From assembly GCF_001942465.1 (NCBI RefSeq), contig NZ_MKJY01000111.1, positions 62,001 to 126,000 on the forward strand: a stretch of DNA of 64,000 nt, read 5' to 3'. This DNA is from Actinomadura sp. CNU-125 (GTDB lineage: Bacteria > Actinomycetota > Actinomycetes > Streptosporangiales > Streptosporangiaceae). A program made the translations under genes and the position numbers. The notes under the pieces were generated by a model. It was not told the origin of the DNA. It saw only the letters and a list, made by a program, of their open reading frames with translations, and ran no database searches. Positions 4,854-10,275 of the stretch are shown here, in pieces (position 1 is the first letter of the stretch; the number at the start of each line of letters is the position of its first letter).

Positions 4854-5290
4854 ATGTGGCGAGAGCTGGCCGAGCGGACGTACCCCGGGACCGAATTCCG
4901 TCCCCCGGTAGGCGGGCCCGCGCTGGACGCGGCGGAACGGCGGCTCGGCGCGCCGCTCCCGCCCGTCCTGCGCGACCTGCTCCGGGAAACCGACGGCCTC
5001 CTCGGACCGTACGGCCTCGACGTCGTCTGGCCCCTGGAGCGGATCGTCGAGGACAACCTGGCGTTTCGGACGGACGAGTCGTTCGCCGAGCTGTACGAGC
5101 CGTTCGACCCGCTGCTGTTCTTCGGCGACAACGGCGGCGGCGACCAGTTCGCGTTCGTCCGGACGACGCGCCGCGCGGCGACGTCCTCGTGTGGGACCAC
5201 GAGGACGACGCCCGCTACCCCGTCGCCGCCGACCTGCGAAGCTACGTCGAACGCGCGCTGCCGAGCGAGGGCGACTGGTACCGGGACTGA
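4854..5290 (+). CDS. SMI1/KNR4 family protein (frame break near 5163)
   Basis: The first 100 or so residues from ATG 4854 (WRELAERTYPG, LDAAERRLGAPLPPVLRDLL, LFFGDNGGGDQFAF) and a second part in the next frame (GDVLVWDHEDDARYPVAADL, then RSYVERALPSEGDWYRD) form one SMI1/KNR4 (SUKH) domain. One base, probably a G in CGGGAC, is missing near 5163. SUKH proteins are often immunity proteins to polymorphic or contact-dependent toxins, but many actinobacterial copies stand alone, as here. No toxin gene is nearby. It is convergent with the encapsulin gene, their stops only 4 bp apart, so it is not co-transcribed with that shell protein and is an unlikely cargo. Confidence 0.7.
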
Positions 5291-5294
5291 GGCG

Positions 5295-6677
5295 TCAGCG
5301 GAGCGTCTCGACCTCGTGCAGGACGCCCAGTGCGTCCGGCACGAGGACCGCGGCCGAGAAGTACACCCCGACCAGGTACGAGCTGATCGCCCGGTCGTCG
5401 ACGCCCTTGAACCGGACCGACAGGCCCGGCTCGCGTTCGTCCGGGATGCCGGTCTTGTGCAGGCCGATGACCCCCTGGTCGTCCTCGCCGGTGCGCATCG
5501 CGATGATCGAACTGACGCCGGTGCCGCTCACCGGGATCTTGTCGCACGGCAGCAGCGGCACGTTCCGCCAGGCCGTCACCCGGACACCGTCCACCTCCGC
5601 CCGCCCCGGGTAGACGCCCTGGCGGGTGCACTCGCGCATGAACGCCGCGATCCCCTTCGGGTGCGCGAGCAGCACCCGCGTGCCGCGCCGCCGCGCCAGC
5701 AGTTCGTCCAGGTCGGCCGGTGCGGGCGGGCCGCCCCGCGTCGTGACCCGCTGCCGCGGATCGACGTTGTGCAGGAGCCCGAAGTCGCGGTTGTTGATCA
5801 TCTCGTTTTCCTGGCGCTCCCGCAGCGCCTCGATCGTCAACCGGAGCTGCTGCTCCACCTGGTCCATCGGCTTGTCGTAGAGATCCGCCACGCGGGTGTG
5901 CACGCGCAGCACCGTCTGCGCCAGGCTCAGCTCGTACTCGCGCGGCCCCGCCTCGTACTCGACGAACGTCCCGGGCAGCCGCGGCTCCCCCGAATGCCCG
6001 GCCGCGACCTCGATCGACGCCTCACCGCGCTTGTTCGCCTTCGGCGGCCCCGACTCGGCGAACCGCTCGACCTGCTCCCGCAGCGCCGCCGAACTCCCGG
6101 CGACCTCCGCGAACGCCTCCCGCGTCAGCGACAGCACCGTGCACCCCGTCACCGCCTTCGCCGTCGCGCCCCACACCGCGTCCCCGTCGGTGAGCGCCTC
6201 CGCGCCGAAGTACTCGCCGCCCGCCAGCGTCCCCAGCCGCGCGGGCTCCCCGAACGCGCCGTCCCCCAGCCGGACGACCTTCCCGTGCACGATCAGATGC
6301 ACCCGGTCCGCGGGGCGCCCCGCCTCCGCGATCACGTCACCGGCCGCGTACTCCGCCTGCACGCACCGTCCCGCGAGCACTTCGAGGACGCGCGCGTCCG
6401 CGAATCCCCGCAGCGGCGCCAGCTCCGCGAGCTCCGCGGGGATCACCCGGACCCGCGCGCCCGTGTTGACGAACGTCACCCGTCCGTCCGCCACCTGGTA
6501 CGCGAGCCGCCGGTTCACCCGGTACGTCCCGCCGGGAACCTGCACCCACGGGAGCGCCCGCAGCAGCCACCGCGGCGAGACGCCCTGCATCTGCGGCCGC
6601 GTCTTGGTGGTCGTCGCGAGGTTCCGCGCGGCGTCCGTCCCCAGGCTGAGCCGCGTGCCCGTCGCACCGTTCGTCAT
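5295..6677 (-). CDS. Family 2B encapsulin nanocompartment shell protein (with cyclic-nucleotide-binding-like domain)
   Basis: A 460-residue protein. The N-terminal arm reads [20 protein letters not shown] followed by [20 protein letters not shown], the hallmark of family 2 encapsulin shell proteins (HK97 phage-like fold). Residues of about 90-210 form a cNMP-binding-like jelly roll ([33 protein letters not shown]), the insertion that defines subfamily 2B. The E-loop/A-domain follows ([35 protein letters not shown], then [20 protein letters not shown]). The ATG at 6677 is preceded by GGGAGGCGACCG. Known 2B systems usually neighbour terpene cyclases (for example 2-methylisoborneol synthase) or polyprenyl transferases, and 2A systems a cysteine desulfurase. 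No such cargo is in this window: flanks are SMI1-like (convergent) and DedA. Some pipelines mislabel it as a Crp/Fnr regulator; there is no HTH. Confidence 0.9.
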
Positions 6678-6871: not shown

Positions 6872-7636
6872 TCAGGCGGGCGCGCGGTCCGGACACGAGA
6901 CGTCGTCGAACTCCCCGCCCGCCGCCTCGACGGGTTCGGCGCTCGGCGTCTCGTCCGCCCCCGGGCTCGGCGCCTCGTCGACCGCGTCGGCCGGTTCGTC
7001 CTCGGCGGCGTCGCGGTTCGCGCGGGCGCGGCGGCGGACGGCGAGAACCACAACGATCAGGGCCGCGACCAGGCCGAACAGGATCCAGGCGCCCCAGCCG
7101 AGGAGTTGTTCCAGCCGGGACGCGGAGGCGCCCGCGAACGCGCCGAGGCTGACGAACACCGCCGACCAGAGGAGCGATCCGGCGAGCGAGGCGAGGAGGA
7201 ACCGCCGGTACGGGACGTTCGCGACCCCGGCCGCGGCGGGCGTCAGCGTCCGCACGACCGGGACGAGCCGCGTGACGAACACGGCGGCCGCGCCGTACCG
7301 GCGGAGCGCCCCCGTGGCGCGGTCCCAGTGCCGGACGCCGAGCCGCCGCACCGCGCGCGTCTCGCGCATCCGCTCGCCGTTCGTCCGGCCCAGCCAGTAC
7401 CCGACATGATCGCCCGCCGTCACGCCCAGCGCGACGATCACGAGCATCGCCGGATAGCGGACGGGATCGGCGGCGGCGGCACCGAGGATCACGACCGCCG
7501 TCTCCCCCGGGACGACCGACCCGACGCCCAGGCCGGACTCGGCGAACGCCAGCACCCCCGCAACCGCCAGCAGCAACGGGAAGGGCAGGTCGCTCAGCCC
7601 CCGGACCCCCTCAGTGACCCACTCCATTCTTCCCAT
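6872..7636 (-). CDS. DedA/SNARE-associated family membrane protein
   Basis: A 254-residue membrane protein with about five hydrophobic segments. The DedA signatures are present: FAESGLGVGSVVPGETAVVI, GDHVGYWLGR, FVTRLVPVVRTLTPAAAGV and a C-terminal AGSLLWSAVFVSLGAFAG. DedA proteins act in the inner membrane in undecaprenyl-phosphate or phospholipid recycling and in membrane-potential homeostasis. After the last helix come basic residues (RRRARANRD) and an unusually long acidic/Pro-rich tail (EDEPADAVDEAPSPGADET). The start is uncertain: ATG 7636 was chosen, but ATG 7627 and a GTG at 7720 are in frame, and none has a strong ribosome site. It is the same strand as the encapsulin, 194 bp upstream of it, so co-transcription is possible but not shown. 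Confidence 0.8.
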   Translation of the reverse strand: MGRMEWVTEGVRGLSDLPFPLLLAVAGVLAFAESGLGVGSVVPGETAVVILGAAAADPVRYPAMLVIVALGVTAGDHVGYWLGRTNGERMRETRAVRRLGVRHWDRATGALRRYGAAAVFVTRLVPVVRTLTPAAAGVANVPYRRFLLASLAGSLLWSAVFVSLGAFAGASASRLEQLLGWGAWILFGLVAALIVVVLAVRRRARANRDAAEDEPADAVDEAPSPGADETPSAEPVEAAGGEFDDVSCPDRAPA

Positions 7637-7843
7637 CGTCTGCGAATTCGGGCCGGTCCGAATCCGCCGAGAAGATGATGTCGGTCCTCCGCCGGAAGGC
7701 TGATTCATCCGCACGAACACCGACCTAAGACGGGTTCGCCCCCCTCCCAGAAGACACCTCCCAAGACCTTCCGCGTACGAGAGCGACCCGTCTTTCCCCT
7801 TGAGGACTTACTCGGGCACGTTATGGAGCATCGGGGGGCGGAG

Positions 7844-9666: not shown

Positions 9667-10275
9667 GTGCCGAAGGTCGTCGATCACGAGGAGCGCAAGC
9701 GGCGGCTGGCGGAGGCCGTCTGGTCGCTGACGGTCCGCAGCGGCCTGGAGAGCGTGACGCTCCGGAAGGTCGCGGCCGAGGCGGGCGTGTCGATGGGGCA
9801 GGTCCAGCACTACTACGCGACGCGGTCCGAGCTGGTGTCGGACGCCGTCGCCCGCGCGGTGCGGGCGCTCAACGCCCGGATCGAGACCTCGATCCGGGCG
9901 GCGGGCGCCGAAGGCGACCCGGAGACGATCCTGCGCGAATGCCTGTACGCGATCCTGGCCAGGGACGAGGAGGGCCTGCGGCTGCTCCGGCTCTCCGTCG
10001 CGGTGCTCGGTCAGGCGGTGTCCGACCCGGCCATGGCCGCCGTGCTCGCGCCGGGCGACGACGAGCTGGTGTCGTTCACGGCGGGCCTCATCGCCGCCGC
10101 CCGCCACGACCGCGGGTCGGCCGCGCGCGACGACGACCGGATCGCGGCCGACATCTGCTGGACGCTCGCCACCGGCCTCGGCGTCGACGTCGCACTGGGG
10201 CATCGTTCCCCGGACGTCGCCAAACGGGTCCTCGACCACCACATCGACACCGTCCTCGGCGGAATGGGCGGCTGA
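9667..10275 (+). CDS. TetR/AcrR family transcriptional regulator
   Basis: A 202-residue one-component repressor. The HTH spans about residues 10-55: ERKRRLAEAVWSLTVRSGLE, VTLRKVAAEAGVSMGQVQHY, YATRSELV. The QVQHYYATR variant is typical of the BetI-like/TetR_C_6 group. The remaining all-helical domain would bind an unknown small ligand. The GTG at 9667 was chosen because AAGGGAGG lies just upstream; the long open frame before it is antisense to the small membrane protein gene. Regulation is probably autogenous together with the 73-residue membrane protein, via the two palindromes at 9594 and 9635. Confidence 0.82.
   Translation: MPKVVDHEERKRRLAEAVWSLTVRSGLESVTLRKVAAEAGVSMGQVQHYYATRSELVSDAVARAVRALNARIETSIRAAGAEGDPETILRECLYAILARDEEGLRLLRLSVAVLGQAVSDPAMAAVLAPGDDELVSFTAGLIAAARHDRGSAARDDDRIAADICWTLATGLGVDVALGHRSPDVAKRVLDHHIDTVLGGMGG

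Follow-up and report, generated by a model that had tools for sequence, protein, structure and literature searches.

In this study, we examined a family 2B encapsulin shell gene of Actinomadura sp. CNU-125 (genome G000 in our sample) which lies in the window, the whole stretch of 64,000 nucleotides analysed, and which by position is an orphan. By its class motif the encoded protein belongs to the Enc2 class, and we consider it probable that it is the unlinked member of a two-component shell whose other subunit and likely cargo are encoded on a different contig, C399. The observations behind this reading are the Enc2-class motif itself, the absence of Enc2 together with the presence of Enc1 and an adjacent prenyltransferase gene (PT) in all four genomes that carry a window-type shell, and low dN/dS for both shells. 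As a protein family the window shell is ordinary; it is informative as an arrangement, the system being known and its unlinked layout new.

The shell gene is as follows.

5295..6677, minus strand: family 2B encapsulin shell, Enc2 class, 460 aa with the stop codon within the coordinates, assigned from Pfam, motif 1 and matches to solved structures.

Residues 213-458 match the SrpI-like type 2 encapsulin family (PF19307, 2e-128) and residues 109-193 match cNMP_binding (PF00027, 3.7e-13), so that the protein has both an HK97-fold type 2 domain and the inserted cNMP-binding-like domain by which family 2B is recognised; its family 2 N-arm contains LGTxAAR. An initial sequence-only reading had described an intact 2B shell with N-arm, cNMP-binding-like insertion and HK97-type remainder, and these matches bear it out. 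Among solved proteins the best score is that of Sl-Enc2 (9BIX, 633.5 bits), ahead of the S. griseus shell (9BHU, 585 bits) and Sl-Enc1 (9BJE, 560 bits). In the structure prediction, which that reading had named as a check on the fold, the AlphaFold model is weak (pLDDT 56.7, pTM 0.39, from a 31-row alignment), and a Foldseek search with this weak model ranks the solved 2B shells 9BHU, 9BIX and 9BJE as its top three. By analogy with S. lydicus, the product would be expected to self-assemble into an icosahedral shell.

Two neighbouring genes flank the shell directly.

6872..7720, minus strand: DedA/VTT membrane protein gene, upstream of the shell on the same strand (Pfam).
4854..5290, plus strand: SMI1/KNR4 (SUKH) gene, convergent with the shell and split into two frames in the draft (Pfam).

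Both had been named in the sequence-only reading, which also held that cargo is missing locally and that DedA is an unlikely one, and on each point our results agree. One flank continues from DedA with HxlR, methyltransferase, TetR, LysR and YeiH-like genes, the other from SMI1 with a beta-lactamase-family protein, MarR and an ABC transporter. With queries for PT, cyclase and 2-MIB methyltransferase, the 20 kb surrounding the shell gave no match at E 1e-3. Pfam searches of the neighbouring frames (sets of 7 and 10, some overlapping) were equally negative for prenyltransferases, cyclases, desulfurases and kinases; a single short frame matched no Pfam family. Across the contig as a whole there is no prenyltransferase match (PF00348), and terpene-cyclase matches (PF19086) occur only at 191-193 kb. 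Nor does a contig end conceal the cargo, since the contig is 194.9 kb long and the shell ORF, at 67.3-68.7 kb, is distant from both of its ends; the arrangement recurs in three relatives, two of which are single-contig genomes. DedA adjoins the window-type shell in 4/4 orthologous loci. Of the 61 other genomes of the genus, 60 lack a match at E 1e-35, and the one match (58%, in G045) is at a different location. We do not favour DedA as cargo, as it is a membrane protein whose tail varies in length and sequence among the four orthologues. Some DedA proteins have been described as flippases of undecaprenyl phosphate, a prenyl lipid, and adjacency is the sole support for a link between the shell and this lipid carrier, which we set aside. 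SMI1 was likewise dismissed as a partner, being found beside the shell in just two of the four orthologous loci.

To place the shell within family 2B, we relied on the division described in S. lydicus, where Enc1 and Enc2 are defined by gene order, motif 1 reads TVWK in Sl-Enc1 and RRRK in Sl-Enc2, and Sl-Enc2 forms shells alone while Sl-Enc1 does not, mixed shells also being formed (PMC12407261). Reading motif classes from an alignment of shells from the loci we fetched, we found motif 1 to divide upstream (VWK/VYK) from downstream (R-type) shells in all 76 complete pairs, that is 53/53 from the genus (48 plus 5 later) and 23/23 from other genera, with 7 further pairs omitted from the latter as second copies of genus loci. 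In the window shell motif 1 is LARRRGT, of the R type; its three orthologues are also R-type, and the Enc1 proteins of the same four genomes carry VWK or VYK. One exception is a partly decayed second pair with a cyclase (G023:C1, L221), in which VWK stands upstream and LICKQTSP, of neither class, downstream. Motif 2 (GAELHGTDVR in Sl-Enc2) appears too variable across the aligned shells for classifying. The R type is also found in 48/48 one-component shells of other genera, a sample biased by having been collected through its similarity to the window protein, and the R motif is thus no proof that a partner is required.

The draft of G000 (9.96 Mb, 603 contigs, 88% complete) has three 2B shells, all full-length: that of the window and two others.

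C399:5089-6456, minus strand: Enc1-class shell, 61% identical to the window shell, motif 1 LTLVWKEP.
C355:27066-28409, minus strand: third 2B shell, 2-MIB type, R class, 55% identical to the window shell.

A prenyltransferase (PF00348) lies directly downstream of the C399 shell, which in G000 is on a different contig from the window shell. The C355 shell sits with a terpene cyclase (PF19086), whose N-terminus contains GPIGLGT, and a methyltransferase, an arrangement of the 2-MIB type. Being encoded in the same genome, the C355 shell could itself be the partner of the window shell in place of Enc1, as two 2B shell proteins of one genome are known to mix in S. lydicus (PMC12407261); we hold this to be very improbable, given that both subunits would be R class and that the relative G022 has a window-type shell and no third shell. 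In G022 the window-type shell is consequently the sole possible partner of Enc1, whereas the other three window-type genomes also carry a 2-MIB shell, which might mix with either subunit.

In our sample of 65 genomes, shell loci were fetched from every genome with a full-length shell, plus a remnant locus from G048, and the gene order is LPD, IMP, (MFS), Enc1, (two-domain cyclase), Enc2, PT, in many cases followed by a binding protein and a sensor kinase (LPD, IMP, MFS, SBP and HK being our labels for the query proteins). The pair Enc1-(cyclase)-Enc2 is present in 55/65 genomes (cut by contig ends in G026 and G051), and PT follows it in 54 of these 55, the contig ending first in G035; in 14/48 pairs a geosmin-synthase-like cyclase stands between the shells. 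Four genomes (G000, G006, G022 and G057, among them A. rifamycini) are split, with Enc1 followed directly by PT and a window-type shell elsewhere. Two more (G037 and G052) are without an intact linked Enc2 and have their R-class shell at another locus, next to a 2-MIB-type methyltransferase, one (G044) has a contig end 2.2 kb past Enc1, and three (G014, G042 and G048) have no shell. Comparing homologous neighbourhoods, as the sequence-only reading had advised, therefore uncovered a conserved Enc1-Enc2-PT order from which Enc2 is gone in the four genomes with a window-type shell. In these split genomes Enc1 and PT are 109-243 bp apart, and the matches listed for an Enc2 remnant in the gaps are short and low-scoring.

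Remnants and extra copies were seen elsewhere in the sample. In G052, whose only other shell is of the 2-MIB type, an Enc2-like remnant lies between Enc1 and PT (L213:1-468), reading PKTIAAFGREC and then GIEGRRVQAWRGVP in another frame. G048 retains shell-gene remnants between MFS and the binding protein (L220, around 9900-10200), with no full Enc1, Enc2 or PT, and in G034 a PT-like gene adjoins an additional Enc1-type shell (G034:C10, L222).

A published survey counted as two-component those systems whose two shell genes lie no more than 10 kb apart (PMC12407261). Here, Enc1 and the window-type shell share a contig in three relatives and are separated by 171 kb (G006), 136 kb (G057) and 127 kb (G022); nor does a cargo gene stand beside the window gene, PT adjoining Enc1 at C399. 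The geosmin synthase serves as a landmark for which of the two loci moved: a match of at least 75% identity was found in 49 genomes, on the Enc1 contig in 33, within 60 kb of Enc1 in 32 of these (3.6 Mb away in G045) and 23-25 kb from it in the three window-type relatives. Gene order and these distances suggest that Enc1 and PT have stayed at their ancestral location and that the change concerns Enc2.

The sample also bears on whether Enc1 depends on an R-class subunit. An R-class shell is present in all 61 genomes with Enc1, G044 aside, and an unlinked R-class shell occurs in 6/6 genomes without an intact linked Enc2 as against 2/55 with the pair (G038 and G049; Fisher 5e-7). When the four sisters are entered as one case, a crude correction for relatedness, the figures are 3/3 against 2/55 (Fisher 3e-4). 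The extra Enc1-type shell of G034 and the decayed pair of G023, neither of them R class, were left out of this count. In addition, dN/dS for the window-type shell is 0.17-0.27 among the four orthologues, which points to a maintained gene; it is lower, at 0.14-0.17, for Enc1 in the same four genomes.

These distributions bear on whether the window shell could stand alone, as a one-component shell whose own cargo, still to be found, is encoded elsewhere and unrelated to the Enc1-PT locus. Sl-Enc2 can do without Enc1 in self-assembly (PMC12407261), R-class one-component shells are common, no cargo adjoins the window gene, and the frame of the C399-type PT is interrupted in two of the four assemblies, all of which a solitary shell would accommodate. 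Yet the gene is present in exactly the four genomes that have parted with their linked Enc2 in this manner and retained Enc1 with PT. Moreover, a PT, cyclase or 2-MIB methyltransferase was found in the fetched stretch (9.5-21.4 kb) of 44/48 one-component shells of other genera, compared with 0/4 window-type loci. We thus regard a solitary shell as unlikely, and return to the window gene as the probable separated partner of Enc1.

Where this partner came from can be approached through trees. In FastTree on 203 shells the genus Enc2 clade (support 97) excludes the four rows of the window clade (stem 0.40), which are otherwise unplaced. A maximum-likelihood search on 53 of the 203 rows recovered the two clades as sisters. 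In approximately unbiased (AU) tests on the 53 rows, p was 0.69 for a sister relationship to genus Enc2, 0.48 for Amycolatopsis Enc2, 0.175 for Streptomyces singles, 0.062 for Actinomadura Enc1 and 0.052 for the nested placement following the Enc1 tree. Without the cNMP domain the order was the same (0.74, 0.43, 0.22, 0.19 and 0.13, the nested value being 0.125), and an earlier 75-row test gave 0.83 (sister), 0.31 (nested) and 0.39 (Enc1). Duplication of Enc1 is disfavoured as the origin, its placement being 54 lnL worse (p-AU 0.06). Descent from Enc2 is accordingly the placement best supported by these alignments, although the tests reject none of the alternatives, and the trees would fit either relocation of a native gene that evolved faster or replacement by a related Enc2.

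Replacement would mean that the native Enc2 was deleted and that a related foreign Enc2, arriving in a clade-specific block with DedA, took over its role, the function of the shell being the same under both histories; we put its chance a little short of even. The nested placement expected of vertical descent is 49 lnL worse, FastTree sets the window clade outside genus Enc2 and maximum likelihood makes it no closer than sister. Identity outside the cNMP domain is 71% between the window shell and genus Enc2s, and 79% among the latter. DedA stands beside a shell in just these 4/65 genomes, whereas the nearby YeiH gene is found in 15/65 and, in the 8 stretches read of the 11 YeiH genomes without a window-type shell, YeiH and LysR occur with neither shell nor DedA. 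Against replacement, a relocated gene evolving faster would yield an identical tree, and a closer donor did not emerge: the best relative outside the four is at 67%, among 250 family genomes and the best 80 loci of a wider contig search. The dS among the four window-type shells is also similar to that of Enc1, so any acquisition would predate the split of the four. The DedA and YeiH distributions are, in the end, compatible with relocation as well as with replacement.

With regard to cargo, the sequence-only reading had left two alternatives, a cargo encoded elsewhere or an undescribed one. The former gains support; the latter may still apply but is unneeded, the shell being of the Enc2 class and Enc1 and PT standing at C399 in the order that the genus has kept, Enc2 apart. 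By position, the PT beside Enc1 is the probable first candidate. In G000 this gene (L008:4103-5024) is broken into several frames; it is a single frame in G006 and G022 and has one frame change in G057, a single-contig genome. The breaks in G000 and G057 are either errors of sequencing or signs that the proposed cargo is decaying, and a broken frame in two of four assemblies counts against PT. Within the G000 draft, frame breaks affect SMI1, PT and the geosmin synthase alike, through sequencing error or decay. LGTxAAR was absent from those ORFs in the fetched loci that our rough classes assign to PT, which would hence need another loading route.

The second candidate, on the strength of its terminal peptide, lies on the contig of the window.

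C111:191069-193220 (L199:11070-13221): geosmin synthase (PF19086), on the same contig as the window shell and about 122 kb from it.

In G000 this protein ends PTGLGTSAARMFHPHPTRT, with the tail PTGLGTSAAR, and GPTGLGTSAAR has been proposed as the targeting sequence of geosmin-synthase-like cyclases (PMC8346489, Andreas and Giessen). The gene is in two frames in the G000 draft and in a single frame in G006, G022 and G057, its tail being LGTSAAR in the first two of these and LGTSAVR in the third. A codon-degenerate genome search for GLGTxAAR gave two sites, the geosmin synthase and an antisense-looking frame at C184; with stricter codons, LGTxAAR was found in the N-arm of the window shell and at two other sites of no evident relation. 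A looser form of the motif occurs in 114 shell, 30 cyclase-query, 36 other and 0 PT ORFs of the loci (again in rough classes), many of the 36 having GPTGLGTSAAR context downstream of shells. The N-arm of the shell and the targeting motif PTGLGTSAAR of the cyclases share LGTxAAR, and cargo peptides may copy the shell N-arm, a suggestion of our own that does not appear in the available part of PMC8346489.

It is improbable, in our view, that the window shell serves mainly this unlinked geosmin synthase, despite a terminus that matches the published motif (PMC8346489), a genome search that otherwise gave one antisense-looking site, and the similar cyclases, several with the motif, that stand between Enc1 and Enc2 in 14/48 pairs. 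The enzyme is some 122 kb away and, in the three relatives, nearer to Enc1 (23-25 kb); two genomes whose shell pairs are ordinary (L152 and L157) have the motif on a stand-alone geosmin synthase as well, and the G057 tail departs from it.

Taken together, we favour a two-component shell with separated genes. In an ancestor of this Actinomadura subgroup, Enc2 would have been lost from between Enc1 and PT, its function now being provided from the window locus, more than 100 kb away, by a moved native gene or a related Enc2 acquired later. As suggested by S. lydicus, the window product would self-assemble and take up Enc1 subunits into a mixed shell, with cNMP-binding-like domains predicted to lie over the two-fold pores; co-assembly with Enc1 is expected by the same analogy. 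The cargo would be the PT beside Enc1, perhaps also the geosmin synthase with its C-terminal PTGLGTSAAR, and the shell might segregate prenyl or terpene chemistry behind pores gated by these domains. Points against this explanation are the R motif in one-component shells, the broken PT in G000 and G057, the poor nested placement and the higher dN/dS than that of Enc1. A broader and more doubtful idea is that of an exchangeable carrier, in which any R-class subunit, whether native Enc2, acquired Enc2 or the 2-MIB shell in G037 and G052, would complete Enc1 and PT, and LGTxAAR peptides mimicking the shell N-arm would load cyclases.

A survey rule of 10 kb (PMC12407261) would miss an unlinked second subunit and leave an apparently orphan shell. 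If our reading is correct, some seemingly cargo-less 2B shells are subunits with a distant partner, and the number of two-component systems in that survey is a lower bound. The four split genomes, like G037 and G052, offer a natural test of whether Enc1 requires a partner of the Enc2 class and whether one such partner can replace another. Our literature search, which covered few subscription papers, found no publication on encapsulins in Actinomadura, and the word "unlinked" is absent from the available text of PMC12407261.

Among known systems, Sl-Enc1 and Sl-Enc2 of S. lydicus (9BJE and 9BIX; PMC12407261) share with ours the class motif, the cNMP-binding-like insertion and the HK97 domain, as well as the occurrence in one genome of an Enc1-class and an Enc2-class subunit. 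They differ in that our genes are apart, by 127-171 kb in the three relatives where a single contig carries both, and in that theirs is a xylulose-kinase system (PMC12407261) whereas the probable cargo here is a prenyltransferase. The Enc1-(cyclase)-Enc2-PT locus of other Actinomadura (55/65) has Enc1, PT and the flanks in the same order; there Enc2 is linked, while here it is gone and an Enc2-class shell is found elsewhere. The one-component 2B shell of S. griseus (9BHU) resembles the window shell in its R-type motif 1 and cNMP-binding-like domain, at 53% identity in the Foldseek alignment. Its cargo is 2-MIB synthase. A difference is that in G000 a shell of the 2-MIB type is present separately, at C355, where a cyclase and a methyltransferase adjoin it.
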